Shown in pieces: positions 411 to 40,897 of a stretch of DNA of 64,000 nucleotides; positions within the stretch are counted from its first letter, which is position 1; each line of letters opens with the position of its first letter. The stretch spans positions 1 through 64,000 of the forward strand of contig JAFUYB010000052.1 of assembly GCA_017470735.1 (NCBI GenBank), in the 5' to 3' direction. The position numbers and the translations under genes are program-made. The notes under the pieces were generated by a model. The model had not been told where the DNA came from, searched no databases, and saw nothing but the letters and a program-made list of their open reading frames with translations. Origin of the DNA: Lachnospiraceae bacterium (GTDB taxonomy: Bacteria; Bacillota; Clostridia; Lachnospirales; Lachnospiraceae).

Positions 411-439
411 TTGTACAAATTTATAAAATATGCTAATAT
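411..439 (+). promoter_or_regulatory. promoter of structured RNA copy 1
   Basis: TTGTAC at 411-416, a 17-bp spacer and TAATAT at 434-439. Transcription would start near 446, a few bases before the 5' arm of the closing stem. The second RNA copy has a similarly placed TTGTCA box, which supports this being the RNA's own promoter. Confidence 0.5.
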
Positions 440-445
440 AAAATG

Positions 446-770
446 GCTAACGAAATCAAGAACAAGGATGTCATGTGTACCACCTATGGGAGCGGCAACT
501 CCCACAGGCAGGGTATGGTAAAGCGAGTACCACACGATACAGTCTTTCGGCTGCGATACACGATTGGAATTATACCACAATAATTAGTATAGTCCAAGCA
601 TGAATGTTACCGCATCCGTAGTTAAGGCAGTCTTTCCGTATATTGCGGGGTGTCGGTGTGGAATTGACCGGCATCCCGTTCTTGATTTCCCAAAAGATTT
701 GCGGGAAATCAAGATTGAAGAAAGCTGTCAGGAGACAGATGTTTTCAGTCTGTTTTCTGACAGCTTTTTT
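446..770 (+). ncRNA. structured RNA, copy 1
   Basis: A non-coding RNA of about 325 nt with its own promoter and terminator. The 5' arm GAAATCAAGAAC (452-463) is the exact complement of GTTCTTGATTTC (678-689). Inside are a stem GTGTA/TACAC (476-480 with 557-561), hairpins at 483-508 (TGGGAG/CTCCCA) and at about 515-533 (GGTA/TACC), a CAGTC/GGCTG hairpin near 540-554, and a hairpin at 648-677 with loop GTGTGGA. A diverged copy at 40507-40897 keeps all these stems with compensatory changes, which is direct evidence for a selected RNA fold. A short open frame (600-782) crosses it but ignores the structure. The family is not identified. It shows none of the hallmarks I know for tmRNA, RNase P or SRP RNA; a raiA-like or other clostridial RNA is possible. 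Confidence 0.75.
722..770 (+). terminator. terminator of structured RNA copy 1
   Basis: AGCTGTCAG (723-731) pairs with CTGACAGCT near 757-765, with an inner ACAGA/TCTGT stem, followed by a T tract. The minus strand also has a T-rich tail after the same hairpin, so it may stop leftward transcription from the promoter at 872-900. The second RNA copy ends in a clearly homologous hairpin. Confidence 0.8.
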
Positions 771-817
771 GTCTTTATTTGATGCGGAAAGATGGCACGG
801 TCTGTTTTCAAAATAAT

Positions 818-844
818 TTTCGCAGAATATGCGGCTCTGCGAAC
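818..844 (+). repeat. left recombination site of invertible cassette
   Basis: Arms TTTCGCAGAA and CTCTGCGAAC flank a 7-bp core TATGCGG (828-834). The site matches the reverse complement of the right site (2221-2247) at 25 of 26 positions, with an identical core. Two short inverted arms around a 7-bp asymmetric overlap is the usual build of a tyrosine-recombinase crossover site. Facing copies predict inversion of the DNA between them. Confidence 0.8.
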
Positions 845-871
845 CGGAAACTCTGTTTTTTTACAAAGGAA

Positions 872-900
872 ATTATATATTTTCCATCCCTGCCCGTCAA
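872..900 (-). promoter_or_regulatory. invertible SigA-type promoter, pointing away from the operon
   Basis: Read on the minus strand: TTGACG (900-895), a 17-bp spacer, and a perfect TATAAT (877-872). It lies 28-56 bp inside the left crossover site and fires outward through it. In the present orientation it faces the terminator of the structured RNA. After inversion between 818-844 and 2221-2247 it would face the operon beginning at 2268, giving a leader of about 65-70 nt that keeps the native AAGGAG ribosome binding site. Confidence 0.75.
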
Positions 901-1034
901 GTTTCCAAAAGAATTTTGGCGATTTTCCGCAAAAAATCGTATATGATGCTTGCCCATAACAGAAAACGGCGTCTTGATATCCGGCAATAATGCCGGAATC
1001 AGCGTCAAAATGTGGTCAGGCAGGAGGAAAAGAG

Positions 1035-2171
1035 ATGGCAAGAAAAGGCGAGAACATTTACAAGAGGAAAGACGGACGGTGGGAAGGACGCTATATAAAG
1101 GAACGGCGGAACGGACGGGCAGTGTACGGCTCTGTTTTCGCACGAACTTATCTTGAAGCCAAGCGGAAGAAAAACGATGCAATAGCACACATACAAGAAT
1201 CCGCAAAACAGAAAGATAAAAAGAAGTGTCCGTCTACGCTTTCAACTATTAGCAGACAGTGGCTGGACGATCTTCGTCTGACCAGGAAACCATCGACTAT
1301 CATGAAATACGAAAACCAGCTCCAGAAACACATATTTCCGGTATTCGGAAACCAGAAAATTGACCAGATTACAAATGATGATATTATTGCATTCAGCAAA
1401 AGTTTACTTTCCGGTCAGGGGACTGCAGATGCTCCGATGTCACCGAAAAGCGTATCCGATATTTTATCCCGCATGAAATCCATCCGCAGATATGCCTTGA
1501 TGGAGGGCATGGAGGTACAGTATGCGGCTGACTGCATTGCCATTCCCCAGCACAGTCAGCCGCTCCGCGTGCTGGACCGTAAAGAGGAAGAGGTGCTGTA
1601 CCGTTACCTGAATGACCATTGCGGTCTTACGGAGCTCGGGATTTTGCTCTGTCTGTTTACCGGAATCCGTCTGGGTGAGTTGTGCGCGCTCAGATGGGAC
1701 GATTTTTCGATGGATGAGCGAAAAGTTCATATCAGACGCACCATGCAGCGGCTGCAGACCAGGGATTCCACCCACAAAACAAAGACTTATATTGACATCA
1801 GTGCACCCAAAAGTGCCTGTTCTATCCGGACAATTCCGATCCCCGATCATATCTTTAATGTATTGCAAAAATCATATGCGGAAAATGCCTACCTGTTGAC
1901 GGGCAGTCTCCAGAAGTTTATCGAGCCCAGGACAATGGAAAACCGGTTCAAAAAAATACTGGCAGACTGCCACATTCCAGACGCAAATTTCCATGCTCTC
2001 CGCCATACCTTTGCTACACGCTGCGTGGAAGTCGGTTTTGACATAAAGAGCCTGAGTGAAATCCTCGGTCACGCATCCATCAGCATCACCTTAGACCGGT
2101 ATGTCCATCCAACCATGGAACTGAAACAAGAGAATATGAACAGACTTTCCAATTTATTTGCCGTCAAATAA
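1035..2171 (+). CDS. tyrosine recombinase of the invertible cassette
   Basis: A 378-residue site-specific integrase/recombinase. Residues about 4-45 resemble the AP2-like arm-binding domain of Tn916-type integrases, about 60-160 the SAM-like core-binding domain, and 180-370 the catalytic domain. The catalytic set is complete: Arg212 (GIRLGEL), His320 and Arg323 (HALRHTF), His346 (LGHAS) and the nucleophile Tyr356 (LDRY). The ATG at 1035 is chosen because AGGAGG lies at 1022-1027; an upstream in-frame start at 990 lacks one. The gene lies entirely between two inverted lox-like sites, with no excisionase, relaxase or phage gene nearby. I infer that it inverts its own cassette. It could instead be the relic of an integrated element, but the paired facing sites argue for a DNA switch. 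Confidence 0.9.
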   Translation: MARKGENIYKRKDGRWEGRYIKERRNGRAVYGSVFARTYLEAKRKKNDAIAHIQESAKQKDKKKCPSTLSTISRQWLDDLRLTRKPSTIMKYENQLQKHIFPVFGNQKIDQITNDDIIAFSKSLLSGQGTADAPMSPKSVSDILSRMKSIRRYALMEGMEVQYAADCIAIPQHSQPLRVLDRKEEEVLYRYLNDHCGLTELGILLCLFTGIRLGELCALRWDDFSMDERKVHIRRTMQRLQTRDSTHKTKTYIDISAPKSACSIRTIPIPDHIFNVLQKSYAENAYLLTGSLQKFIEPRTMENRFKKILADCHIPDANFHALRHTFATRCVEVGFDIKSLSEILGHASISITLDRYVHPTMELKQENMNRLSNLFAVK

Positions 2172-2220
2172 ATGGTCAGAATTTTTCTGCACACAGAAAA
2201 CAAGCGGACTCCCGGCATTT

Positions 2221-2247
2221 TTTCGCAGAGCCGCATACTCTGCGAAA
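2221..2247 (-). repeat. right recombination site of invertible cassette
   Basis: On the plus strand, arms TTTCGCAGAG (2221-2230) and CTCTGCGAAA (2238-2247) are perfect reverse complements around CCGCATA (2231-2237), the reverse complement of the left core. The site ends 13 bp before the AAGGAG of the first operon gene, so inversion leaves that gene's translation signals untouched. Confidence 0.8.
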
Positions 2248-2267: not shown

Positions 2268-3566
2268 ATGACATTGAGAGTGATTGAGGATAAGGGAAAA
2301 GAAATCTATGAGCTGGCAGAAAAGATTTTCCCAATTTGCCGGAGTCTTACGGGGGAAGGTGTCAGAGAGACGATTAATTCTCTGAATGATTACATTAAGC
2401 AGGATGGTCTGCATTTTGACATTCATGAGGTACCTACGGGAACGCAGGTCTTTGATTGGACGATTCCGAAAGAATGGAAAATTCGTGAGGCATATATTGA
2501 AGATAAGCAGGGAAATAAGATTGTTGATATGAAGGATAATAATCTTCATGTCATGGGATATTCTACACCGATAGATAAATGGGTGTCACTTTCCGAACTA
2601 AAGGAGTGCGTATATACTCAGTCGGAACAACCCACCATGATTCCCTATGTCACATCATATTATAAGGAGCGGTACGGATTTTGCATGAGTCAGGTACAAT
2701 TGGATTCGTTAGAAGAAGGCGAGTACCATATATTTGTTGATAGTGAGCTTTTTGATGGAAACTTAACATATGCAGATCTCATTATTCCCGGGGATACTGA
2801 CAATGAGATAATGCTAACCAGTTATACTTGCCATCCTTCGATGGCGAATAACGAATGCTCTGGTCCGGTAGTGCTGTCGGCACTTATCCGATTTGTTAAC
2901 TCACTGAAAAACCGAATATACACATATCGATTTGTTTTGAATCCGGAAACTATTGGCTCTATAACATATTTGAGCCAGAATTTAGAGCATCTCAAGGAAA
3001 GATTAGTGGCTGGAATCGTTCTCTCATGTGTGGGGGATGATAGGGATTATTCCATCGTGCATTCAAGATATGCGCAAACCATAGCAGACAAATCTCTGAC
3101 AGCAGTTTTGAAGGGAAAGCAGACATACACGGAATATTCATTCCTCAAACGAGGCTCTGACGAAAGGCAGTATAATGCTCCCGGTATTGAATTACCCGTA
3201 GTAGGATTTTGCAGATCAAAATATGGAGTATACCCAGAGTATCACACATCGGCTGACAATATGGGGCTGATATCCCCAGCGGGACTGCAGGGGGCATATG
3301 AAACTATGGCACAATGGATATGCTGTATGGAGGCGAACCATAACTACAAGATGACAGTGCTTGGCGAACCGCAGTTGGGCAAACGAGGGCTATATCCTAC
3401 CATATCCCAGAAAGGCAGCTATGATGAAATTACAGCGATGATGGATTTTATAGCTTACGCTGATGGGAAGAATGATCTGTTTGATATTAGTGAGATCATT
3501 GGTGTGTCTCCGTATAATTTGTTGCCAATCATCGAGAAACTAAAAAATAACGCACTTTTAGCATAA
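2268..3566 (+). CDS. DUF4910/DUF2172 aminopeptidase-like protein
   Basis: A protein of about 432 residues of the DUF4910/DUF2172 type: a zinc-peptidase-like (M28-like) fold with an inserted domain and a C-terminal winged helix. Candidate metal ligands are His189 in YTCHPSMANNECSGP and His326 with Asp330 in YHTSADN. Such proteins recur in surface polysaccharide and other biosynthetic loci, where their substrate is mostly unproven. It is the first gene of a tightly packed operon and the first downstream of the invertible cassette. The start is uncertain: AAGGAG (2261-2266) is too close to the ATG at 2268 but ideally placed for a TTG at 2274; in-frame upstream starts overlap the recombination site. 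Codon use is AT-rich, unlike the core genes. Confidence 0.8.
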   Translation: MTLRVIEDKGKEIYELAEKIFPICRSLTGEGVRETINSLNDYIKQDGLHFDIHEVPTGTQVFDWTIPKEWKIREAYIEDKQGNKIVDMKDNNLHVMGYSTPIDKWVSLSELKECVYTQSEQPTMIPYVTSYYKERYGFCMSQVQLDSLEEGEYHIFVDSELFDGNLTYADLIIPGDTDNEIMLTSYTCHPSMANNECSGPVVLSALIRFVNSLKNRIYTYRFVLNPETIGSITYLSQNLEHLKERLVAGIVLSCVGDDRDYSIVHSRYAQTIADKSLTAVLKGKQTYTEYSFLKRGSDERQYNAPGIELPVVGFCRSKYGVYPEYHTSADNMGLISPAGLQGAYETMAQWICCMEANHNYKMTVLGEPQLGKRGLYPTISQKGSYDEITAMMDFIAYADGKNDLFDISEIIGVSPYNLLPIIEKLKNNALLA

Positions 3567-3588
3567 GTATCAAAGGAGAGGCAGACAA

Positions 3589-4443
3589 ATGGATATCAAT
3601 AATCTATGTGATGGACTAAGGGAAAAATTAGAAGAAATCGGGATTGCGGCTGGAGATACCGTATATGTAGCTTCAGATATCCGGTATTTGATCTACTCTA
3701 CTACAAACAAGTTCGGAGCAGATCAAATAGACAGTGCCTTGGATATACTCACAAACACCCTTCAAGAAGTGGTTGGTGATGAGGGCACTATTCTATTCCC
3801 TGTATTTTCTTGGGATTTTTGCCGAGGAAAAGGTTTTGATTATTATAAAACACAGGGTGAAGTGGGAACATACTCAAATTGGATTCTTAATAATCGAAAA
3901 GATTTTAGAAGGACACAGCACCCGCTATATTCATTTATGGTGTGGGGAAAGAAACAAGACATGTTCTGTAACATGAGCAATCAGGATGCATGGGGTGTGG
4001 CTTCCCCATTCTATTATTTGTTGAGAAACGAAGGAAAACAGCTTGAGTTCAATGTCGAATCTTACAAGGGACTCACTTTCATCCATTGTATCGAGCAATG
4101 GGTTAAAGTTCCGTACAGACATTATAAGTATTTCTATGGGAAATATACAGATGCAAACGGAGATACCGAGATTAGGACATACTCAATGTATGTGCGCGAT
4201 TTGGATGTATATGAACATACAAAAACTACTCATCAATATTTGATTGAACACGGTGCTGCGGTAGCAACAGAGTGGGATGGCAATAAATTGACGGTTGTTG
4301 ATATTGCAAAATGCTACGATGTTGTAAAAGAAGATATCATTAACAATGATGGAATAAATAATCTTTCGTTTAAGGATTATGAGTTCCATTATGATACACA
4401 ACAAACAATTCCTTATGAAGTAAGAAATATTCCAGTAGAATGA
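3589..4443 (+). CDS. AAC(3)-family N-acyltransferase
   Basis: 284 residues resembling aminoglycoside 3-N-acetyltransferases. The family signature is RTQHPLYSFMVWG around the catalytic His111. Members use an acyl thioester to acylate an amino group. With a dedicated carrier protein and ligase directly downstream, the donor here may be an acyl-ACP and the acceptor an amino sugar, as suggested for AAC(3)-like genes in glycan loci such as the Campylobacter flagellin glycosylation region; this is inference. AAGGAG precedes the ATG. Antibiotic resistance is possible but less likely given the operon. Confidence 0.8.
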   Translation: MDINNLCDGLREKLEEIGIAAGDTVYVASDIRYLIYSTTNKFGADQIDSALDILTNTLQEVVGDEGTILFPVFSWDFCRGKGFDYYKTQGEVGTYSNWILNNRKDFRRTQHPLYSFMVWGKKQDMFCNMSNQDAWGVASPFYYLLRNEGKQLEFNVESYKGLTFIHCIEQWVKVPYRHYKYFYGKYTDANGDTEIRTYSMYVRDLDVYEHTKTTHQYLIEHGAAVATEWDGNKLTVVDIAKCYDVVKEDIINNDGINNLSFKDYEFHYDTQQTIPYEVRNIPVE

Positions 4444-4460
4444 CACAAAGGAGGAAAACC

Positions 4461-4697
4461 ATGGAAATTGAAAGAAAAGTAAAGGACATAATTGCATCAG
4501 TACTTAATGTCAATATTACTGAAATTGAGGATGATACTGCTATTGGAGATTTACCCGAATGGGATTCCCTTCACCACATCCAGATTATTTCTGCGATAGA
4601 GAAAGCATTTGATTTTCGATTTACTCCGGATGTAATGATGGACTTAGAGGATGTTAGTGATATTGTGAATGCAACAGAGGCAAGAGTTGGCAAGTGA
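4461..4697 (+). CDS. acyl carrier protein
   Basis: A 78-residue stand-alone carrier protein. Ser36 in the EWDSLHH motif is the expected phosphopantetheine attachment site, and the acidic four-helix pattern fits the family. AGGAGG lies just before the ATG at 4461; an earlier in-frame ATG at 4440 overlaps the previous gene and is poorly placed. Its stop overlaps the GTG start of the acyl-activating ligase by four bases (GTGA), suggesting coupled synthesis and partnership. It is not next to fab genes, so it is probably a dedicated carrier for this pathway. Confidence 0.9.
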   Translation: MEIERKVKDIIASVLNVNITEIEDDTAIGDLPEWDSLHHIQIISAIEKAFDFRFTPDVMMDLEDVSDIVNATEARVGK

Positions 4698-6145
4698 CAT
4701 CAATAGTTGAACAGATATTTACTTTCGGGAAAGAACACAAAAATAAGGTCGCACTGGCAAATGGTAAAAGTAGCAAGACTTACGGCGAATTGTTGAATGA
4801 TATACTATGTGCAAAAAAAATTCTTTCTGAAAGATTTAAGATAAAAAAGGGGGATAGAGTAATTCTATCTGCAGATAAGCAGATGGAATTTGTATCTGTT
4901 TATTTTGCCTGTCATCTTCTGGAAGCGGTCACACTACCTATTGCGCCAGATACGAATCCCAAAAGATATGAATTAATCAAAAGCAAGGTTGAGCCAAAAC
5001 TTGTGGTGGGATTCAAGGAGTCCGAAGATGGTGCAATAACTGCTGGGTTGAAAGAGTTTATTTTAGAAAGTGATTTTGTATTTAATGAGGAGACAGCCTT
5101 TCCCTCATTAGATTCATTCGCAGATATTATTTTTACTACAGGAACGACGGGTGAACCTAAAGGCGTACAGCTTTCTCACAGGAATATAATGGCTGCTGCA
5201 AGAAATATCAATACGTTTATAAAGAATGCCACGGACGAGGTAGAGATGCTTGCACTTCCAATATCGCATTCCTTTGGACTAGGAAGAATGAGGTGCGCTT
5301 TATCAAACGGACAAACCCTTGTTTTGTTAGGGAGTTTTGCCAATGTAAAACGTTTTTTCCGTTTTATAAAAGACTATGAGGTAAATGGATTTGGTATGGT
5401 TCCTGCAAGTTGGGCGTTATTAAAGAGACTTAGTGGTGACGAAATTAGCAAATACAAGGATCAGTTAAATTATATTGAAATAGGCTCCGCACCTATGCCA
5501 TTAGAAGAAAAAGAGTATTTGATGCAAATGCTTCCTAAAACGAGAATTTGTATGCACTATGGTTTAACAGAAGCCTCTAGAAGTGCATTTATGGAATTCC
5601 ACGAAGAGGAGAATCGGCTTAACACTGTGGGCAAACAATCTCCAAACATGAACATCACTATCCGGGATGAATCAGGGAATGAACTGCCTGATGGAAACGA
5701 AGGAGAAATCTGTGTCAGCGGCGATGCTGTTACAGTGGGTTATTTGAACATACCTAAGGATGATTCATTTTGGAAAAATTCTTTTCGTACTGGAGACTGG
5801 GGAGTAAAGGATCCAGATGGATATATTACATTAAAAAGTCGAAAGAAAGAGCTGATTAATGTTGGCGGCAAAAAGGTAAGTCCCATTGAGGTGGAGGAAG
5901 TACTTAAAGGAATTGACTTTATTGAAGATTGCGTTTGTATTGGAATACCGGATCAGGATGGTATTCTTGGAGAAGTGGTGAAGGCTTTTGTAGTAACGAA
6001 ACATCCTGAAATGATATCATATGAATCCGTAGAGCCCCTGATTGGAAATCAGTTAGAAGGCTTCAAGCACCCGGTAATATATAGCGTAATCGACGAAATC
6101 CCTAAAACCACCTCTGGGAAAATTCAGCGTTTATCATTGAAATGA
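4694..6145 (+). CDS. AMP-forming acyl ligase loading the ACP
   Basis: A 483-residue member of the acyl-adenylating superfamily. The core motifs are visible: the phosphate-binding loop FTTGTTGEPKG, the adenine motif GLTEASR, RTGDWG, the hinge region GGKKVSPIEVEE, and the C-terminal catalytic Lys in KTTSGKIQR. It would activate a carboxylic acid as an acyl-AMP and transfer it to a thiol, most likely the phosphopantetheine arm of the ACP encoded immediately upstream. The GTG start overlaps the ACP stop. The acid substrate cannot be read from the sequence. Confidence 0.85.
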   Translation: MTSIVEQIFTFGKEHKNKVALANGKSSKTYGELLNDILCAKKILSERFKIKKGDRVILSADKQMEFVSVYFACHLLEAVTLPIAPDTNPKRYELIKSKVEPKLVVGFKESEDGAITAGLKEFILESDFVFNEETAFPSLDSFADIIFTTGTTGEPKGVQLSHRNIMAAARNINTFIKNATDEVEMLALPISHSFGLGRMRCALSNGQTLVLLGSFANVKRFFRFIKDYEVNGFGMVPASWALLKRLSGDEISKYKDQLNYIEIGSAPMPLEEKEYLMQMLPKTRICMHYGLTEASRSAFMEFHEEENRLNTVGKQSPNMNITIRDESGNELPDGNEGEICVSGDAVTVGYLNIPKDDSFWKNSFRTGDWGVKDPDGYITLKSRKKELINVGGKKVSPIEVEEVLKGIDFIEDCVCIGIPDQDGILGEVVKAFVVTKHPEMISYESVEPLIGNQLEGFKHPVIYSVIDEIPKTTSGKIQRLSLK

Positions 6146-6159
6146 TGTAGAGGTATGAT

Positions 6160-7281
6160 ATGTGGCAACCACAAGGGTTTTATAATGAATATACACTCAG
6201 AACACCTGTAATTTTATCCGGTGAAAATTCTGTTAGAGGGTTATATAATTATCCGGCGGCAAAGATTGCAGTAATCCATGGGACCTCATTTTGTGATAGA
6301 GAATTGTTTTTATCCACATTTTCTAAGAGAGAAGTTAGATTCTTTGCTAGAAGCTGGAAAGATGAACCTAGTTTTGAGGGACTACGGGAAACCATCGGAG
6401 AACTTGAGGATTTTAAGCCTGATGTGATTATCGCAGTTGGTGGAGGTTCAGTTATTGATGGCAGTAAGTTATGCCGACTATTATATGAATTTCCCTATTT
6501 CGATCCAAAGACTTCCAGAGTTAGCGGACATATGATGAAAACTCGATTTATTGCAGTGCCAACAACCGTAGGAAGTGGGGCAGAAGTTTCATCTGCTGCA
6601 GTTTTCTACGATTCAATGTCGCAAAGAAAAGACATGGTTGTAATTCATGAACTTCAGCCAGATGTCGTGATTTATGATCAGAAATATATAATTGGCACAC
6701 CCCATAGATTGCTATGCGCATCGGCACTTGATGCAACAGCTCATATTTTGGAAGGGTATGTTTCTATTGTTCAGAACTCCTTTACAGATGTTTTGGCGGA
6801 AGAGGGGTTATCATTATTACATGAAGAACTGAAGATGCTAATTTCAGGCAAAGATTGTAACTACTCCCGTTTGCAATATGCTGGTTACATAGGTGGAATT
6901 GTTCAAAACCATTGCATAGTAGGCGCTGCACATGCAATAGCGCACCAACTTACAGAACAAGGATATTCTCATAGTGAAGCAGTTTCATTGCTGCTCCCTG
7001 CTGTCATTAGAATAAATATGACGAATGGGGATTGCTATGATAGATATAAAACCATTTCTGAGAGGGCTGGTTTTACCAGCATAGATGAGATGTTATATTT
7101 CATAGAAAGTATCGTTGAATTCGCAGGATTATCGAATAGGCGCGATGCTTTGATTGAACATTTAACCAAGGCACAGGAAGAGCAATCATTTTGTCAGAAT
7201 GCGATTAATGACAGAGGTGGAAACGGAAATCCTGTCGAAATAACAGGCGAATATATCAAACAACTAATCAGGAGTATGTAA
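6160..7281 (+). CDS. iron-containing alcohol dehydrogenase
   Basis: A 373-residue group III (Fe-type) alcohol dehydrogenase. It has the NAD-binding glycine motif AVGGGSVIDGSK, the TTVGSGAEVS loop and the metal ligands Asp191 and His195 (ALDATAHILEG) with His258 and His262 (GAAHAIAHQL). The family interconverts aldehydes or ketones and alcohols. In this operon the natural role is reduction of the aldehyde released by the downstream LuxC-like reductase. The gene starts 14 bases after the ligase and ends one base before the next start. Confidence 0.85.
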   Translation: MWQPQGFYNEYTLRTPVILSGENSVRGLYNYPAAKIAVIHGTSFCDRELFLSTFSKREVRFFARSWKDEPSFEGLRETIGELEDFKPDVIIAVGGGSVIDGSKLCRLLYEFPYFDPKTSRVSGHMMKTRFIAVPTTVGSGAEVSSAAVFYDSMSQRKDMVVIHELQPDVVIYDQKYIIGTPHRLLCASALDATAHILEGYVSIVQNSFTDVLAEEGLSLLHEELKMLISGKDCNYSRLQYAGYIGGIVQNHCIVGAAHAIAHQLTEQGYSHSEAVSLLLPAVIRINMTNGDCYDRYKTISERAGFTSIDEMLYFIESIVEFAGLSNRRDALIEHLTKAQEEQSFCQNAINDRGGNGNPVEITGEYIKQLIRSM

Positions 7282-7282
7282 T

Positions 7283-9763
7283 ATGGGATATCTCACAGAT
7301 AGTCTTGTTAAGAATGCACCTTTTAATTACGAGGAAAAAGAAAAACAAATAGGGGGATCATTTTATGAGGCTCTGATGGAGGAAGTAAGATTTCATTATG
7401 ATAATAATGATCTTTACCATAAGTTTTGCAACAATAAAGGATTTAATCCGATTACATTTTCAGGAAGCATTAGTGAGATTCCGCCGGTTCAGGTAAGTGT
7501 TTTTAAGGAATTGGGCAGCCATCTAAATAGCGTACCCAAAAATGATATTAAATTGACGCTTCAATCATCAGCTACATCTGGTATACCTAGTAGCGTTCCC
7601 ATAGATAGTATTACTTCCAAGCGTCAGGCGAGATCCATGATAAAGGTAGTTGGCGATTACATTGGGAATGAGAGAAAACCTTTTCTGATTATGGATGTAG
7701 ACCCTATGTCGGGTTTTCGTGAAATCCTCGGGGCAAGATATGCGGCTGTTAGTGGCTATCTGAACTTTGCATCAGATGCCGCATATTTCTTAAAAGTTGA
7801 CGATCATAATACATATTATTTTGATATAGATGGTATTTCCGATTACATTAACGGTATTGATAATCAGGAATCCGTTGTTTTTGGTTTTACATATATTCTA
7901 TACTCTGAAGTAATTAAACCTCTTACAGAGAAAGGTTTACATTTTTTGCTACCGAAAGGATCAAAGGTTATACACATTGGTGGATGGAAAAAACTGGAAA
8001 GCGAAAAGATTAGCAAGGACGAGTTTAATACACTTGCAGCAGATTTATTTGGTATTGAGAAAACGGATATAATTGATATCTATGGATTTACAGAACAAAT
8101 GGGGCTCAATTATCCGGATTGTCCTTGTGGATGCAAACATGCCCCCTTATATTCTGAGGTTATTGTTCGCGATGTCATAACTAAAGAAATCCTCCCAGAA
8201 GGAGAAGAAGGACTTTTGGAGTTTGTGACACCAATACCACACTCGTATCCCGGAAATGCAGTATTGACCGATGATTTAGGAGTTGCAGTTCCGGGAGAAT
8301 GCGAATATGGACGATCTGGGAGAAGATTCAAAATCATTGGACGCTTGAAGAAAGCGGAGATTCGCGGATGTGGAGATATTCTTTCAAGCAAACTAAAATT
8401 TGCAAATGAGGACACATCCGAGCATATTGTAAAGAACAATTCTGATTTTCGAGTATACTATTGTGGAAATCACTTTACAGAAAACAGAGATACTACTGAA
8501 TCATTAGTGAAATTGGCAGATGAACTGAAAAACCGGATAAATTGGCTTAGGGAGCAGCCTATTGATGCATTGATAGGTCTTATTAGCAAAGTTTCAAAAA
8601 AATGGAGCGAGAATGTAGAAGGGTTAAAAGGAAATCAGAATCAAGGATTACAGTTCCTTTTGACATGGTGTACTCCTGAAAACTTGGTGCAGATTGCGAA
8701 TGACGGTCTTCGCGGGAACCGTAAATTTGCTGATGGATTTTTGCCAATAGATGATAATGGCGTCCATATGATGAGATCCACATCACGAGGACTTGTTTGT
8801 CATTGGTTGGCAGGAAATGTTCAGGTACTCGGAATGTTTGTGCTAATTCAAAGTATTCTTACTAAAAATGTAAATATACTCCGAGTATCAAGCAGAGATA
8901 ATGGCGCTTTCCAGTCACTACTCACAGCATTTTCGGGCGAGTCATTTATAACTAGTGGCGGTTATTCTATTTCGGGTGATGATCTTTTGAGTACGATTGC
9001 TCTTGTCTTTTTTGATCATAGAGATATAAAAGCTGGGCGAAAGATGTCTGAGTTGGCGGATGTGCGTATTGCCTGGGGAGGAAGCGAGGCGGTATCTACT
9101 GTATCAGCTTTCCCTTCAAAATATGATTGTGAAGATATTATTATGGGTCCGAAGCTATCAATGTCGGTTGTATCCCATGAAGAAATAGAAAATGAAAGAA
9201 AAGCAAAGAAGTTGGCTAGGAAGATAGCGATTGACGCTAGTGTATTTGACCAGACGGGATGTGCTTCAACACACAACATTTATGTAGAAAAAGGAAGTGA
9301 TATCTCTCCGGTAGATTTTGCAGAGCTTCTGGGCGAAGGAATGTCAAAAGTTGCGAAACAGATTCATAAGGGTGAAATGACACCGGAGGAGTTTGCTGCA
9401 GTTCATTCGGCACGAGGAATATATGATTTCAAGGGAAAGGTATATGGTGACGCTGATTCGATTTGGACTGTTTTATACGATGAGGACATTCAGCTGAATA
9501 AGCCGGTCTACTCACGAGTGATTTTTGTTCATGCTGTAGATAGTATAGAAGAGGTGCTCCAATTTGTCTCTGACGATACACAGACCATAGGTCTCGCAGC
9601 TTCTGGAGAAAAGGCGCAAATCTTTGCGTCCGAGGCTGCAAAAAGGGGAGCGGTACGGTTCCCGTTTTGTGGGAAGATGTTAAATTTTGAATCGCCATGG
9701 GACGGCATGTTTATAATGGAAAGAATGATACGATGGAATACGCTTGGCGGTCCGTTGGTATAA
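7283..9763 (+). CDS. LuxE-LuxC fusion: acyl-protein synthetase and acyl reductase
   Basis: An 826-residue two-domain enzyme. Residues about 1-380 resemble LuxE-type acyl-protein synthetases, with the nucleotide loop SSATSGIPSS and an IYGFTEQMG motif. Residues about 440-826 resemble LuxC acyl-CoA reductases, an aldehyde dehydrogenase relative, with the NADPH-domain stretch NVQVLGMFVLIQS and the acyl-binding Cys660 in FDQTGCAST. In luminous bacteria LuxE and LuxC are separate proteins that turn a fatty acid into an aldehyde. Here they are one chain, with no luciferase nearby but with an ACP, a ligase and an alcohol dehydrogenase. I infer reduction of a bound acyl group to an aldehyde. The ATG lies one base after the previous stop. 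Confidence 0.85.
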   Translation: MGYLTDSLVKNAPFNYEEKEKQIGGSFYEALMEEVRFHYDNNDLYHKFCNNKGFNPITFSGSISEIPPVQVSVFKELGSHLNSVPKNDIKLTLQSSATSGIPSSVPIDSITSKRQARSMIKVVGDYIGNERKPFLIMDVDPMSGFREILGARYAAVSGYLNFASDAAYFLKVDDHNTYYFDIDGISDYINGIDNQESVVFGFTYILYSEVIKPLTEKGLHFLLPKGSKVIHIGGWKKLESEKISKDEFNTLAADLFGIEKTDIIDIYGFTEQMGLNYPDCPCGCKHAPLYSEVIVRDVITKEILPEGEEGLLEFVTPIPHSYPGNAVLTDDLGVAVPGECEYGRSGRRFKIIGRLKKAEIRGCGDILSSKLKFANEDTSEHIVKNNSDFRVYYCGNHFTENRDTTESLVKLADELKNRINWLREQPIDALIGLISKVSKKWSENVEGLKGNQNQGLQFLLTWCTPENLVQIANDGLRGNRKFADGFLPIDDNGVHMMRSTSRGLVCHWLAGNVQVLGMFVLIQSILTKNVNILRVSSRDNGAFQSLLTAFSGESFITSGGYSISGDDLLSTIALVFFDHRDIKAGRKMSELADVRIAWGGSEAVSTVSAFPSKYDCEDIIMGPKLSMSVVSHEEIENERKAKKLARKIAIDASVFDQTGCASTHNIYVEKGSDISPVDFAELLGEGMSKVAKQIHKGEMTPEEFAAVHSARGIYDFKGKVYGDADSIWTVLYDEDIQLNKPVYSRVIFVHAVDSIEEVLQFVSDDTQTIGLAASGEKAQIFASEAAKRGAVRFPFCGKMLNFESPWDGMFIMERMIRWNTLGGPLV

Positions 9764-9784
9764 AAATGAGAGGTTACTTGGGAA

Positions 9785-10207
9785 ATGGATCAGATTAAGT
9801 CTATAGTGGGTGTTGACCATATTGGTTATGCAGTAAAAAGTATTTCACAATCTAAAGAGCAATTTGCTGCTCTAGGTTATTTTTTTGACGATGAAAAGCC
9901 TGACATATTAAGACGTGTAAATGTCTCCGTTGGCAAAAATGGGGGGGTGCGAGTTGAACTTCTTTCACCGCTTAATACGGCTGATAAATCTCCGATAGAT
10001 GGCTATTTGGATAAAATCGGAAGCACACCTTATCACATTTGCTATGAAGTAAGCGACATCGATAAGGCTATTTCAGAATTACAAGAGATAGGTTTTACAG
10101 TGTTAGGGTCTCCAGCCGAGTCAGTACCATTAGAAGGAACTGTATGTTTCCTATATTCTACAGATATTGGACTGATTGAAATAATCGATTATTTGATTGA
10201 TAAGTAA
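9785..10207 (+). CDS. VOC protein, methylmalonyl-CoA epimerase-like
   Basis: 140 residues with two glyoxalase/VOC half-repeats. The four metal-ligand positions are His in VDHIGYAV, Glu in RVELL, His in TPYHICYEV and Glu in GLIEII. The closest familiar relatives are methylmalonyl-CoA epimerases and glyoxalase I. No mutase or other propionate-pathway gene is nearby, so the substrate is more likely an intermediate of this operon. It is the last gene of the unit, 21 bases after the LuxE-LuxC gene. Confidence 0.75.
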   Translation: MDQIKSIVGVDHIGYAVKSISQSKEQFAALGYFFDDEKPDILRRVNVSVGKNGGVRVELLSPLNTADKSPIDGYLDKIGSTPYHICYEVSDIDKAISELQEIGFTVLGSPAESVPLEGTVCFLYSTDIGLIEIIDYLIDK

Positions 10208-10373: not shown

Positions 10374-10413
10374 TTGATATTTTCTTGCTTGCGTATATAC
10401 TATATGTATATAC
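10374..10413 (+). promoter_or_regulatory. vapBC promoter and operator
   Basis: TTGATA (10374-10379), a 16-bp spacer and TATACT (10396-10401). The -10 box lies inside a 21-bp palindrome, GTATATAC-TATAT-GTATATAC (10393-10413). Toxin-antitoxin complexes of this class usually bind such a palindrome to repress themselves, so this is the likely operator. Confidence 0.6.
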
Positions 10414-10438
10414 ATTGATGAATGAGGAGGGCAAGCCC

Positions 10439-10672
10439 ATGGTAACAGCAAAAGTATTTCAAAGTGGAAATAGCCAAGCAATCCGTATTCCTAGCGAATT
10501 TCACACCACGGAAAAAGAGTTCTTCATCCGTCAATTTGGCACGGGTTTTTATCTTATCCCGACCAACGATCCGTGGTATCTATTGCGCAACAGTTTAGGG
10601 AAAGCGAAGGATGAGCAATTTGAGCGAGAGCAGCCAGAAATCTCAATGATTCCGGCTCGGGAGGAGTTCTAA
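10439..10672 (+). CDS. vapB: VapB-type antitoxin
   Basis: A 77-residue antitoxin of the AbrB/MazE-like (SpoVT-AbrB) fold: MVTAKVFQSGNSQAIRIP is the swapped-hairpin DNA-binding signature. The C-terminal half is charged and would thread over the toxin. AGGAGG at 10425-10430 selects the ATG at 10439 over an upstream in-frame ATG. It overlaps the toxin start by one base (TAATG), the usual arrangement. It would repress the operon from the palindrome at 10393-10413 together with the toxin. Confidence 0.85.
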   Translation: MVTAKVFQSGNSQAIRIPSEFHTTEKEFFIRQFGTGFYLIPTNDPWYLLRNSLGKAKDEQFEREQPEISMIPAREEF

Positions 10673-11070
10673 TGTATTTGCTTGATACAAATATCTGTAT
10701 TTATGCAATAAAGGGGACATATCCGAATCTCTCAAAGAAATTGTTATCCATACATCCCGACCTTATCAATGTGTCCGCTGTCACTATGTATGAATTGGAA
10801 TATGGTGCCGCAAAGAGCAAATGGGGAGAAAAATCACATGATGCTATGCACATGTTCTTATCATCATTTGAAATATTGCCGTTTTCTGACATGGACGCTA
10901 TGGCATGTGGTGTGATTCGAGCAGACCTCGAAGCCAAGGGTACACCAATTGGCGCTTATGATGTGATGATTGCGGCGCAGGGGTTATCTAGGAGACTGAC
11001 CGTTGTTACTCATAATACCGGAGAGTTTCAGCGTGTTCCCGGACTCAGCGTTGAGGACTGGACAGTATAG
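10672..11070 (+). CDS. vapC: VapC-type PIN ribonuclease toxin
   Basis: A 132-residue PIN-domain protein. Acidic residues expected at the metal site are present: Asp5 (LLDTN), Glu in YELEYG and Asp97 (GAYDVMIAA), with a polar position near THNTGEF. VapC toxins cut RNA, often initiator tRNA or rRNA; the target here is unknown. It appears full length and intact, directly after its antitoxin. Confidence 0.88.
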   Translation: MYLLDTNICIYAIKGTYPNLSKKLLSIHPDLINVSAVTMYELEYGAAKSKWGEKSHDAMHMFLSSFEILPFSDMDAMACGVIRADLEAKGTPIGAYDVMIAAQGLSRRLTVVTHNTGEFQRVPGLSVEDWTV

Positions 11071-11087
11071 ATAAAAGAGAGAGGGGG

Positions 11088-11235
11088 ATACGGATTATGG
11101 GTGTTGTTTACCCATCATCACTACCTTGCGTATAGAGTAGCCCCAGATCAGGTCGTTATCGTTCAGATGTTCCATGAACGCGAAGACTATATACTTTACA
11201 TTACAGGCTTTTGGATACTATGCCCGGATCATTGA
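11088..11235 (+). pseudogene. relE toxin fragment
   Basis: A duplicate of the C-terminal part of the RelE/ParE toxin gene at 12490-12837. The clear nucleotide match runs about 11088-11190 against about 12670-12778. From 11104 it still reads LFTHHHYLAYRVAP then DQVVIVQMFHERED. A one-base deletion near 11100 breaks the frame relative to the intact gene, there is no start, and after the match the frame runs on to a stop at 11233-11235. It overlaps the 3' end of the minus-strand brnA gene. Confidence 0.75.
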
Positions 11236-11524
11236 TGGCATTGTCAAGAAGACGGCTTAAGAATCCAGTGTATCCTTTTCCGGTTGCTTTCGCCTTTTCT
11301 AAGGTATCGGGAGATATGCGAAGTGAAATCACAGGCTTTACATTTTTGGAACGACGCTTTCTTGCAATCTCAGCCATTTCTGCATACTGTTCCAATGAAA
11401 GCTCCGGCGCATCTTCATCTGGGACAATGGGCATAGATGCGGCAAGTTCTATTTCTTTTATCTGAGCCTCAGTGGGCTGCTGACCGGCATGGATGGTAGT
11501 GCGGATAATCTTTTCATTCTCCAT
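11201..11524 (-). CDS. brnA: BrnA-type antitoxin
   Basis: A 107-residue antitoxin. The C-terminal stretch KPVISLRISPDTLEKAKATG is a ribbon-helix-helix DNA-binding domain; the acidic N-terminal part would contact the toxin. Its start overlaps the end of brnT by 11 bases on the same strand, the toxin-first order typical of BrnTA modules. It probably represses the shared promoter. The 3' end runs into a relE fragment on the other strand. Confidence 0.82.
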   Translation of the reverse strand: MENEKIIRTTIHAGQQPTEAQIKEIELAASMPIVPDEDAPELSLEQYAEMAEIARKRRSKNVKPVISLRISPDTLEKAKATGKGYTGFLSRLLDNAINDPGIVSKSL

Positions 11525-11801
11525 AATAAATCTTCCTTTCTGTCTGGTTTGCCATACGCGCAGATATCAGCCGCGCAGCTTCTCCCCTCATGGTATAAAC
11601 CACATACAGGATTCCTTGTACGCAACCCAAAACAACATAGCGGTCTTCGTCCTGACTGTGCAGTTTGTCGTAATATTCAATCCGCTCATCATCGGCAAAT
11701 ACTAAGGCGGCAGTTTCGAAGCTGATACCATGCTTTTTGATATTAACCCGGTTTTTATTATCGTCCCATTCAACGAGCACATCAGAAATGTTTGTTTTCA
11801 T
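11514..11801 (-). CDS. brnT: BrnT-type ribonuclease toxin
   Basis: A 95-residue BrnT family toxin, a RelE-fold RNase. The family signature is clear: VEWDDNKNRVNIKKHGISF then ETAALVFADDE, with a C-terminal ISARMANQTERKIYY containing the expected Arg residues. The toxin precedes the antitoxin. The promoter leaves almost no leader (see 11808-11836). Confidence 0.85.
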   Translation of the reverse strand: MKTNISDVLVEWDDNKNRVNIKKHGISFETAALVFADDERIEYYDKLHSQDEDRYVVLGCVQGILYVVYTMRGEAARLISARMANQTERKIYYGE

Positions 11802-11807
11802 ACATAA

Positions 11808-11836
11808 AGTATAACAGAAAGTAATACTTTTGTCGA
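11808..11836 (-). promoter_or_regulatory. brnTA promoter, probably leaderless
   Basis: On the minus strand, TCGACA (11836-11831), a 17-bp spacer and TATACT (11813-11808). Only six bases separate the -10 box from the brnT ATG, so transcription should start at or next to the start codon. No Shine-Dalgarno is seen. Confidence 0.6.
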
Positions 11837-11924
11837 GTTATAGTATAGCATAGGGCGGCATGATTATTCCGATATGTCACTAAATAAAACGCAACATACA
11901 GATTCCAGTCATGAGAAATCCCCG

Positions 11925-12032
11925 CAGGGTAAGAGCAAAATAGATTTTTCTAAATATGGTCATAGGACTGAAAAAAGGCAGAAGGTAGACAAATTTATGG
12001 AGGAAATAGCAGAATGCAACTGTGACGGTTGA
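11925..12032 (+). pseudogene. antitoxin C-terminal fragment, duplicate
   Basis: Reads GKSKIDFSKYGHRTEKRQKV followed by DKFMEEI to a TGA at 12030-12032, closely matching the C-terminal half of the antitoxin at 13383-13607. A flanking piece (about 11898-11920) also matches sequence upstream of that gene near 13292-13312. There is no start or N-terminal half, so this is a decayed duplicate. Confidence 0.75.
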
Positions 12033-12054
12033 GATTATTTTTCAAAAACTGCTG

Positions 12055-12076
12055 CAATATTTGCATGCAAATATTG
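12055..12076. repeat. 22-bp perfect palindrome
   Basis: CAATATTTGCA followed by its exact reverse complement TGCAAATATTG, with no loop. It lies between the antitoxin fragment and the promoter of the RelBE-type module. There is no T tract. It could be an operator or a replication-type dyad. Confidence 0.5.
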
Positions 12077-12166
12077 TTGCGTTTAGCAATGAGACAGGCT
12101 ATAATGAGTTTATCTGTTATGGATATGAAAGTATGGCACTACCTCACGAATGCAACGCATGAGTAG

Positions 12167-12195
12167 TTGATAGGACTAGTAACTGGTAGTGTAAT
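12167..12195 (+). promoter_or_regulatory. promoter of Phd/RelE-type module
   Basis: TTGATA (12167-12172), a 17-bp spacer and TGTAAT (12190-12195), about 37 bp before the antitoxin start. Confidence 0.6.
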
Positions 12196-12231
12196 ATAAA
12201 CATCATGAGTTATTTAGAGGAGATGGAATCT

Positions 12232-12486
12232 ATGCCTAATATTAAGCCGATATCGGAACTCAGGAATTACACTAATGTAATAAAGGAAGTAAAATACGGA
12301 AGCAGAGTCTATCTTACCAAAAATGGTCATGGTCATATAACCATGATAAATATGCAGGAGCTTGATGAAATAGAGAAAGAACTGGCATTGTGTAAGTTCA
12401 AGCTTGAAATGGAGAAGGGAGAGCGTTCTATTATGGAAAAAGGGACGGTTTCTTCAAAAGAATTAAGAAAAGGACTTGGGCTATAG
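12232..12486 (+). CDS. Phd/YefM-type antitoxin
   Basis: An 84-residue antitoxin. NIKPISELRNYTNVIKEV, then SRVYLTKNGHGHITMIN, is the Phd/YefM N-terminal DNA-binding domain, and the Lys/Glu-rich C-terminus would bind the toxin. AGAGGAG places the start at ATG 12232 rather than an in-frame ATG at 12205. The toxin gene follows after three bases. Confidence 0.85.
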   Translation: MPNIKPISELRNYTNVIKEVKYGSRVYLTKNGHGHITMINMQELDEIEKELALCKFKLEMEKGERSIMEKGTVSSKELRKGLGL

Positions 12487-12489
12487 GAT

Positions 12490-12837
12490 ATGCGTGATGT
12501 ACAGTTTTCTCCGTTAGTTCAGGAAAAGCTTGGGCAATTAAGAGAACGCTTGTTGCTTGAATACAGCGTTGAAAAAACAGAGAGTATACTGAATGGTATA
12601 TTAGATGATGCTGATAACCTTTCATTGTTCCCGCAGAGTGGTGTAGATATAAGTGGACGATATGAGTTGGATACGGATTATTGGTATTTGTTTACCCATC
12701 ATCACTACCTTGTGTATAGAGCAGTCCCAGATCAGGTCGTTATCGTCCAGATGTTCCATGAACGCGAAGACTTTATGATGAAGCTATTTGGTATATCAGG
12801 TCGTTCACAGGAGTCTATTGACTATTGGGGAGAGTAG
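12490..12837 (+). CDS. RelE/ParE-type toxin
   Basis: A 115-residue RelE/ParE superfamily protein (FSPLVQEKLGQLRERL, YELDTDYWYLFTHHHYLVYR, VVIVQMFHERED). RelE-like toxins cleave mRNA on the ribosome; ParE-like ones poison gyrase. The basic and aromatic C-terminal pattern with MFHERED favours an RNase-like role, but this is not certain. It appears intact, and part of it is duplicated as a fragment at 11088-11190. Confidence 0.82.
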   Translation: MRDVQFSPLVQEKLGQLRERLLLEYSVEKTESILNGILDDADNLSLFPQSGVDISGRYELDTDYWYLFTHHHYLVYRAVPDQVVIVQMFHEREDFMMKLFGISGRSQESIDYWGE

Positions 12838-40506: not shown

Positions 40507-40897
40507 GTACTATATAATAAGAAATCAAGAACAATAGGTGTTTGTGTAACGCCAAGAGAGGCTGGACCCCTCTCCTGGCAAAGCATGGTATCAACCTACC
40601 ACACAGTACAGTTCTTCGACTGCGATACACGATTGCCATTATAACACATGGTATCGTTTTTTCAAGCGTTGTATCGTAGCAGAAACAGCCTCGATAAAAG
40701 CGGGGTGTCGGTGTGGACGCATACTGACACCTCGTTCTTGATTTCTCACAGAATTTTCGCATCTGGGCGGTGTGTGCACGCACCGTCCCAAGATGCGTAT
40801 TGTACCATGAAATTGCGGTACTTTGTGGGAGATCGGGATTGGAAGGAGCTGTCAAAAGACAGATTTTTGCAGTCTGGCTTTTGGTAGCTTCTTTTTT
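40507..40897 (+). ncRNA. structured RNA, copy 2
   Basis: A diverged copy of the RNA at 446-770. The closing stem is GAAATCAAGAAC (40521-40532) with GTTCTTGATTTC (40734-40745). The first hairpin keeps its shape with different bases (GCCA/TGGC at 40551-40554 and 40576-40579; GAGAGG/CCTCTC at 40556-40561 and 40569-40574). The ATGGTA/TACCACAC and CAGTT/GACTG hairpins and the GGTGTCGGT/ACTGACACC hairpin (40704-40712 with 40723-40731) are also kept. It has an extra hairpin (about 40760-40797) before the conserved end. The terminator lies about 30 bp before the MaoC gene, so this copy could be a separate RNA or a leader controlling that gene. Confidence 0.72.
40847..40897 (+). terminator. terminator of structured RNA copy 2
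   Basis: AGCTGTCAAAAG pairs with CTTTTGGTAGCT (ending at 40889), with an inner CAGA/TCTG stem, followed by TCTTTTTT. It shares AGCTGTCA, GACAGAT and CAGTCTG with the terminator of copy 1. Confidence 0.7.

Follow-up and report, generated by a model that had tools for sequence, protein, structure and literature searches.

In the Hin system of Salmonella, the inverted H segment contains both the recombinase gene and an outward promoter, and the enzyme is a serine recombinase that uses hix sites and a Fis enhancer. In the promoter invertons fim, RecV (C. difficile) and Mpi (Bacteroides), the recombinase is encoded outside the segment; Mpi and RecV each serve several loci. Additionally, C. difficile cwpV provides an example of orientation-dependent read-through. 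A study that names Hin as an example described in Providencia stuartii a putative 844-bp invertible segment near fimbriae, with a recombinase open reading frame and 14-bp repeats (PMC5903667). In gut Clostridia, inverton group 139 has been linked to a nearby tyrosine recombinase (invertase group 35); its orientation shifts were measured in culture and its examples span ~200-260 bp (PMC11892184).

We analysed a 64,000-nucleotide stretch of DNA from a Lachnospiraceae bacterium (the window), in which a tyrosine recombinase gene and a promoter lie between two inverted sites ahead of an operon. This cassette is very probably an autonomous promoter inverton, with a Tn1549-type integrase encoded inside the segment and the downstream operon as the target that it would toggle. 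Like Hin, the cassette contains the recombinase and a promoter that would face or leave the target operon; unlike Hin, the enzyme is a tyrosine integrase (Pfam Phage_integrase, 2e-24) with 26-bp sites and candidate arm sites, and membership of the Hin-type (serine) invertases was therefore rejected. The P. stuartii segment, compared by description, also has its recombinase inside but is shorter, has 14-bp repeats and belongs to the Gammaproteobacteria. Group 139, likewise compared by description, resembles the cassette in being clostridial and in its tyrosine recombinase, although its examples are too short to hold the gene. The inverted repeats carrying a promoter are common to fim, RecV and Mpi, which differ in having the recombinase outside the segment. 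The likeness to Tn916/Tn1549-type integrases consists of the best sequence and fold match and the combination of core sites with internal arm-like repeats. A Tn916-like conjugative transposon was rejected as an identity because the recombinase gene lies alone between the sites, with no transfer or excision genes. The logic of the cassette is thus known from Hin, while the enzyme class is a different one. Open-access literature searches returned no description of the cassette family. The features of the locus are listed below.

411-439, plus strand: external promoter-like sequence TTGTAC-17-TAATAT with TG at the extended -10; the exact pattern occurs once in the window, and its function is putative
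447-693, plus strand: structured leader RNA with its core at 472-582, from covariation among 22 copies
718-776, plus strand: predicted leader terminator, a long hairpin followed by a T run, from folding and sequence
818-843, plus strand: left recombination site TTTCGCAGAA-TATGCGG-CTCTGCGAA, read from the sequence and a repeat search
872-900, minus strand: outward promoter TTGACG-17-TATAAT, the region's best match to sigma-70 and conserved in the family
1004-1018, plus strand: direct repeat of paired GTCA words (GTCAAAATGTGGTCA), putative arm-type site A, just 5' of the ribosome-binding site, from a motif search
1035-2171, plus strand: tyrosine recombinase of 378 aa with a Tn1549/lambda-Int-like fold, from Pfam, alignment and fold match
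2163-2178, plus strand: direct repeat of paired GTCA words (GTCAAATAAATGGTCA), putative arm-type site B, overlapping the stop codon, from a motif search
2222-2247, plus strand: right recombination site, the inverted copy, read from the sequence and a repeat search
2274-3566, plus strand: first operon gene (DUF4910/DUF2172, peptidase-like) with a probable TTG start, after the ribosome-binding site AAAGGAG at 2260-2266
3589-10207, plus strand: remaining cargo (AAC(3)-like, ACP, AMP-binding, Fe-ADH, LuxE-LuxC fusion and glyoxalase-like), from domain matches

The two sites are 26 nt long, are complementary at 25 of 26 positions and are separated by 1378 nt. The original prediction drew each of them one base too wide (818-844 and 2221-2247) but was right about the repeat and about an asymmetric 7-bp core shared by both sites: TATGCGG and CCGCATA are identical and in the same frame, and the sole mismatch between the sites lies in an arm. 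The site pattern is present at two positions in the 3.04-Mb assembly, which are the two ends of the cassette, and action in trans on further site copies was dropped as a candidate since there are none elsewhere in the assembly. No copy of the cassette in the second orientation was found in the same 3.04 Mb.

The promoter at 872-900 is an 11/12 match to sigma-70, the strongest in the region. It had been predicted at this position with its strand unstated; it is on the minus strand and is directed left out of the cassette, away from the operon, and the assembled orientation is thus the promoter-off one. Inversion maps coordinate x to 3065-x, which would place the -35 at 2165-2170 and the -10 at 2188-2193, directed towards the operon, with a computed start near 2200. 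The operon itself had been predicted at 2268-10207, and the domain content agrees with this, although the ribosome-binding site makes TTG 2274 the likelier start of its first gene. The gap between the right site and this TTG is only 26 bp, which leaves no space for an operon promoter outside the cassette. Relatives of the recombinase were collected from GTDB contigs, viral contigs, plasmids, phages and whole genomes, and in 73 of their cassettes the stretch from the left site to the start of the recombinase was scanned. Of these, 77% have an outward TTGACA-N16..18-TATAAT that departs from the motif at one position at most, compared with 1.4% for the opposite strand and 0.8% for dinucleotide-shuffled sequence, and its -10 usually lies ~25-40 bp away from the site. 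For the recombinase itself, no conserved promoter emerged from the 73 cassettes.

From these comparisons we propose that the recombinase would bind both inverted 26-bp sites and exchange strands within the identical 7-bp cores, and that the 1.43-kb segment would be inverted with the recombinase gene and the divergent outward promoter that it carries. In the assembled orientation the promoter would be directed away from the operon, and in the inverted orientation transcription would begin ~75 nt before the first operon gene. Self-inversion with promoter switching had been suggested from the window alone, and the family comparison supports it well through the bracketing of the recombinases, the promoter, the cores, the orientations relative to neighbours and the closest relative, L019.

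A promoter-like sequence, a structured leader RNA and a terminator are located directly 5' of the cassette. The folding strength of 447-776 is z = -7.3, and among 22 copies of the leader both-side changes were observed in 14 of 24 pairs (covariation 0.371 versus 0.118 shuffled and at most 0.090 slid). The segment 680-691 is able to pair with 452-463 or with 703-714, and it is possible that these alternative pairings before the terminator form a switch. An Rfam search with the leader gave no match. A covariance model detected it in 11 of 195 relatives (8 genera); copies are found in the window (447-776 and 40541-40651), at C51, C60 and C81 of the same genome (G000; C48 partial) and in genomes G001, G004, G005, G021, G034, G103, G119, G130, G140 and G157. 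Among the non-cassette genes that follow it are some for choline-binding, BspA-type LRR and Ig-like surface proteins, and the leader appears to form a cis-regulatory RNA family in its own right, associated with surface genes. It also precedes a second cassette in the same genome (L196, which is G000:C81; L002), whose recombinase is 40% identical, whose 27-bp repeats are perfect and whose span is 1432. The first cargo gene of this second cassette resembles that of the antiterminator LoaP, with a match (3e-15) that falls short of the curated cut-off, and polysaccharide genes come after it. In L195 (G000:C51, 2998-4450) the leader is directly 5' of an Mpi-like serine recombinase (2e-12, below the curated cut-off). 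Near 2260-2420 of L198 (G000:C48), a fragment of a recombinase N-terminus lies by a partial leader RNA ahead of glycosyltransferases, and is possibly a relic cassette.

With the cassette oriented as assembled, transcription coming from the leader would run on through the recombinase and into the operon, and 'off' may therefore be conditional instead of silent. It is conceivable, though we consider it unlikely, that the external promoter and leader (411-776) drive both the recombinase and the operon and that inversion mainly alters this read-through. The elements upstream of the cassette are consistent with such an arrangement, as is the insulation 3' of the recombinase, which appears weak in the window copy. 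The clear terminator that precedes the right site in some relatives is missing from the window copy; a strict terminator pattern was found in 10 of 72 cassettes versus 2 of 216 controls, and a stable stem with a T-rich tail in 34% versus 1.5%, so that by these patterns an insulating terminator is common, not universal. Two results argue against read-through as the main effect: the internal outward promoter is conserved family-wide, and the leader was found upstream of cassettes at none of the 38 loci scanned from other genomes.

A doubtful variant of the promoter inverton is that the cassette is a latch gated by a signal and does not switch at random. Recombinase transcripts would start, in the assembled orientation, at the external promoter and run through the leader RNA, and conditions that allow read-through of the terminator would lead to recombinase synthesis and flipping of the cassette. 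The flip would set the operon constitutively on and detach the recombinase from its promoter, and the second cassette would act likewise on the LoaP-like antiterminator gene.

The recombinase gene is complete, as the original prediction held, and a SAM-like domain accompanies the Phage_integrase match at the N-terminal side. The catalytic residues R212, K259, H320, R323, H346 and Y356, the R-K-H-R-H-Y active site of Tn1549/Tn916-like tyrosine recombinases, are invariant among 29 relatives. Among solved structures, the best sequence and fold matches are Tn1549 Int (6emz and 6en2), and the fold also matches lambda Int. Residues 8-59 are predicted to form three strands and a helix, and the N-terminal motif GENIYKRKDGRWE is near-invariant among relatives. 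A Pfam search gave no arm-domain match; the motif and the predicted sheet and helix fit a domain like those of the lambda and Tn916 integrases, and the N-terminus is probably an arm-binding domain. GTCA-N6..9-GTCA pairs, on the same strand as the recombinase and with their two words 11-13 nt apart, are found ahead of the start codon in 80 of 117 relatives and after or over the recombinase stop in 62 of 117, with a control rate of 0.2% of 100-bp windows. These pairs are probably arm-type sites, in which case the enzyme would probably bridge core and arm, and the recombinase may repress itself through them. It is rather improbable that the family switches while the enzyme or the sites of this strain are inactive: the gene is intact, all catalytic residues are retained and the core is perfectly matched. 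What favours a locked copy is the one mismatch between the window sites and the loss of one or both sites in about a quarter of relatives.

Tyrosine recombinases require identical overlap sequences in both partners. In 68 cassettes the left and right 7-bp cores are identical within the locus in 93%, and the cores of between-locus pairs agree in 1.2%. Within loci, cores mismatch at ~2% of positions and arms at ~11%, where the site pairs, having been found by similarity, are biased to matching cores, a bias that would have applied to arms as well. The arms are better conserved than the cores between loci, yet they are more divergent within a locus. Cores that are matched within and not between loci are the pattern demanded by strand exchange. 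This pattern and the conserved outward promoter weigh against a minimal integrase-borne transposon, with terminal inverted repeats and by chance located before operons, that has no switching function. Such an element would agree with the closest solved enzyme being a transposon integrase and with the presence of near-identical cassettes in several Clostridia genera (L047-L053, L119, L131 and L132). However, these copies share kilobases of common flank, which indicates that the cassette rides a larger mobile element, and we regard a minimal transposon as very unlikely. A faecal 'phage' contig also carries a near-identical L047-type cassette, and all such copies are in one orientation.

The bracketing of the recombinase was counted in 128 non-redundant, untruncated relatives with enough flank (~32-61% identity). 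A flanking inverted repeat (score of at least 15) was found in 97 of these and in none of 294 same-sized control windows, and a chance repeat beside an unrelated integrase, for which there is nothing but the shortness of the repeat, is contradicted by these controls, by the confinement of the pattern to the cassette ends and by conservation in the family, and has practically no probability. The bracketed cassettes usually span 1.40-1.50 kb. In a tree of 138 recombinases the bracketed state occurs throughout and unbracketed members are scattered, several of which retain the right-hand site alone. In L137 a 375-bp pair of same-type sites is located beside, not around, a related recombinase gene, and the inside and outside forms may thus be related. 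The original prediction called the module unrecognised: the self-contained design stands, but the module is no one-off, as it belongs to a large Clostridia family with members on Enterococcus plasmids that carry inverted repeats and GTCA repeats.

Orientation was judged from homologous neighbours of the cassettes. A homologous cargo of 6 genes flanks L050 at its promoter side but L054 at the opposite side; the L047 group and L099/L100 are in opposite orientation with 80% DNA identity right up to the site; and in L058 versus L064 the upstream neighbour is exchanged. Among 73 cassettes, outward-facing neighbours are on the non-promoter side only in 36, on the promoter side only in 7 and on both in 25. 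These counts and the opposite-orientation loci indicate that both states occur and that off is commoner in assemblies. The opposite-orientation pairs are from different species or elements and are mostly homologous on one side only, so they may stem from independent insertion. In contrast to these pairs, orthologous isolate loci in four species of one genus had the same orientation throughout, as did the two loci compared among E. raffinosus strains and plasmids. Scans of viral contigs for near-identical copies in opposite orientation gave only single or identical copies, and identical G515 copies at two contig ends, which resembled orientation heterogeneity, were set aside as a same-orientation assembly overlap. 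Contig ends pile up near the gene (left, 11 of 25 within 620 bp; right, 6 of 14 within 402 bp; of 6000), which fits mixed orientations in the sampled populations and could have other causes. In L029, homologous outward-facing genes are present on both sides and the repeat is at least 466 bp, extending into both genes; L153-L165 (genus g237) also have outward-facing homologous genes on both sides, and the L153 and L157 flanks match. These arrangements suggest a choice between two cargoes instead of on/off.

The closest relative, L019, has a recombinase that is 61% identical, matching sites and the same cassette, and its first two operon genes are those of the window (71% and 50%); the third differs (FkbH-like). 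Relatives that share the recombinase and operon but lack the sites had been named as evidence against inversion; L019 carries both together with the sites, which counts in favour. A LuxE-LuxC relative in another genus, with no adjacent cassette, is located in a cluster that by sequence resembles glycan biosynthesis, and for this reason the operon probably makes an acyl or aldehyde-derived group and attaches it to a surface glycan. Elsewhere in the family, first cargo genes encode HTH regulators, FtsK/SpoIIIE-FHA proteins (type VII secretion-like), NRPS modules and response regulators; the E. raffinosus cargo starts with an HTH gene, after which come accessory SecA2/SecY2 genes. At 10385-12837 of the window, 3' of the operon, are three consecutive two-gene pairs whose translations resemble toxin-antitoxin modules.

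The family represents a one-gene, transplantable on/off module, and it supplies tyrosine recombinases with distinct matched sites for side-by-side testing. Should the latch be true, self-limiting flipping cassettes would be a widespread class in Clostridia. The core identity and the conserved promoter predict the 'on' orientation for dozens of unstudied loci, which include type VII secretion-like, NRPS, regulator, surface protein and polysaccharide genes. An order-level search found a relative (E at most 1e-60) in 49 of 392 genomes, ~1 in 8, and many gut Clostridia may thus hide phase-variable surface and competition genes.
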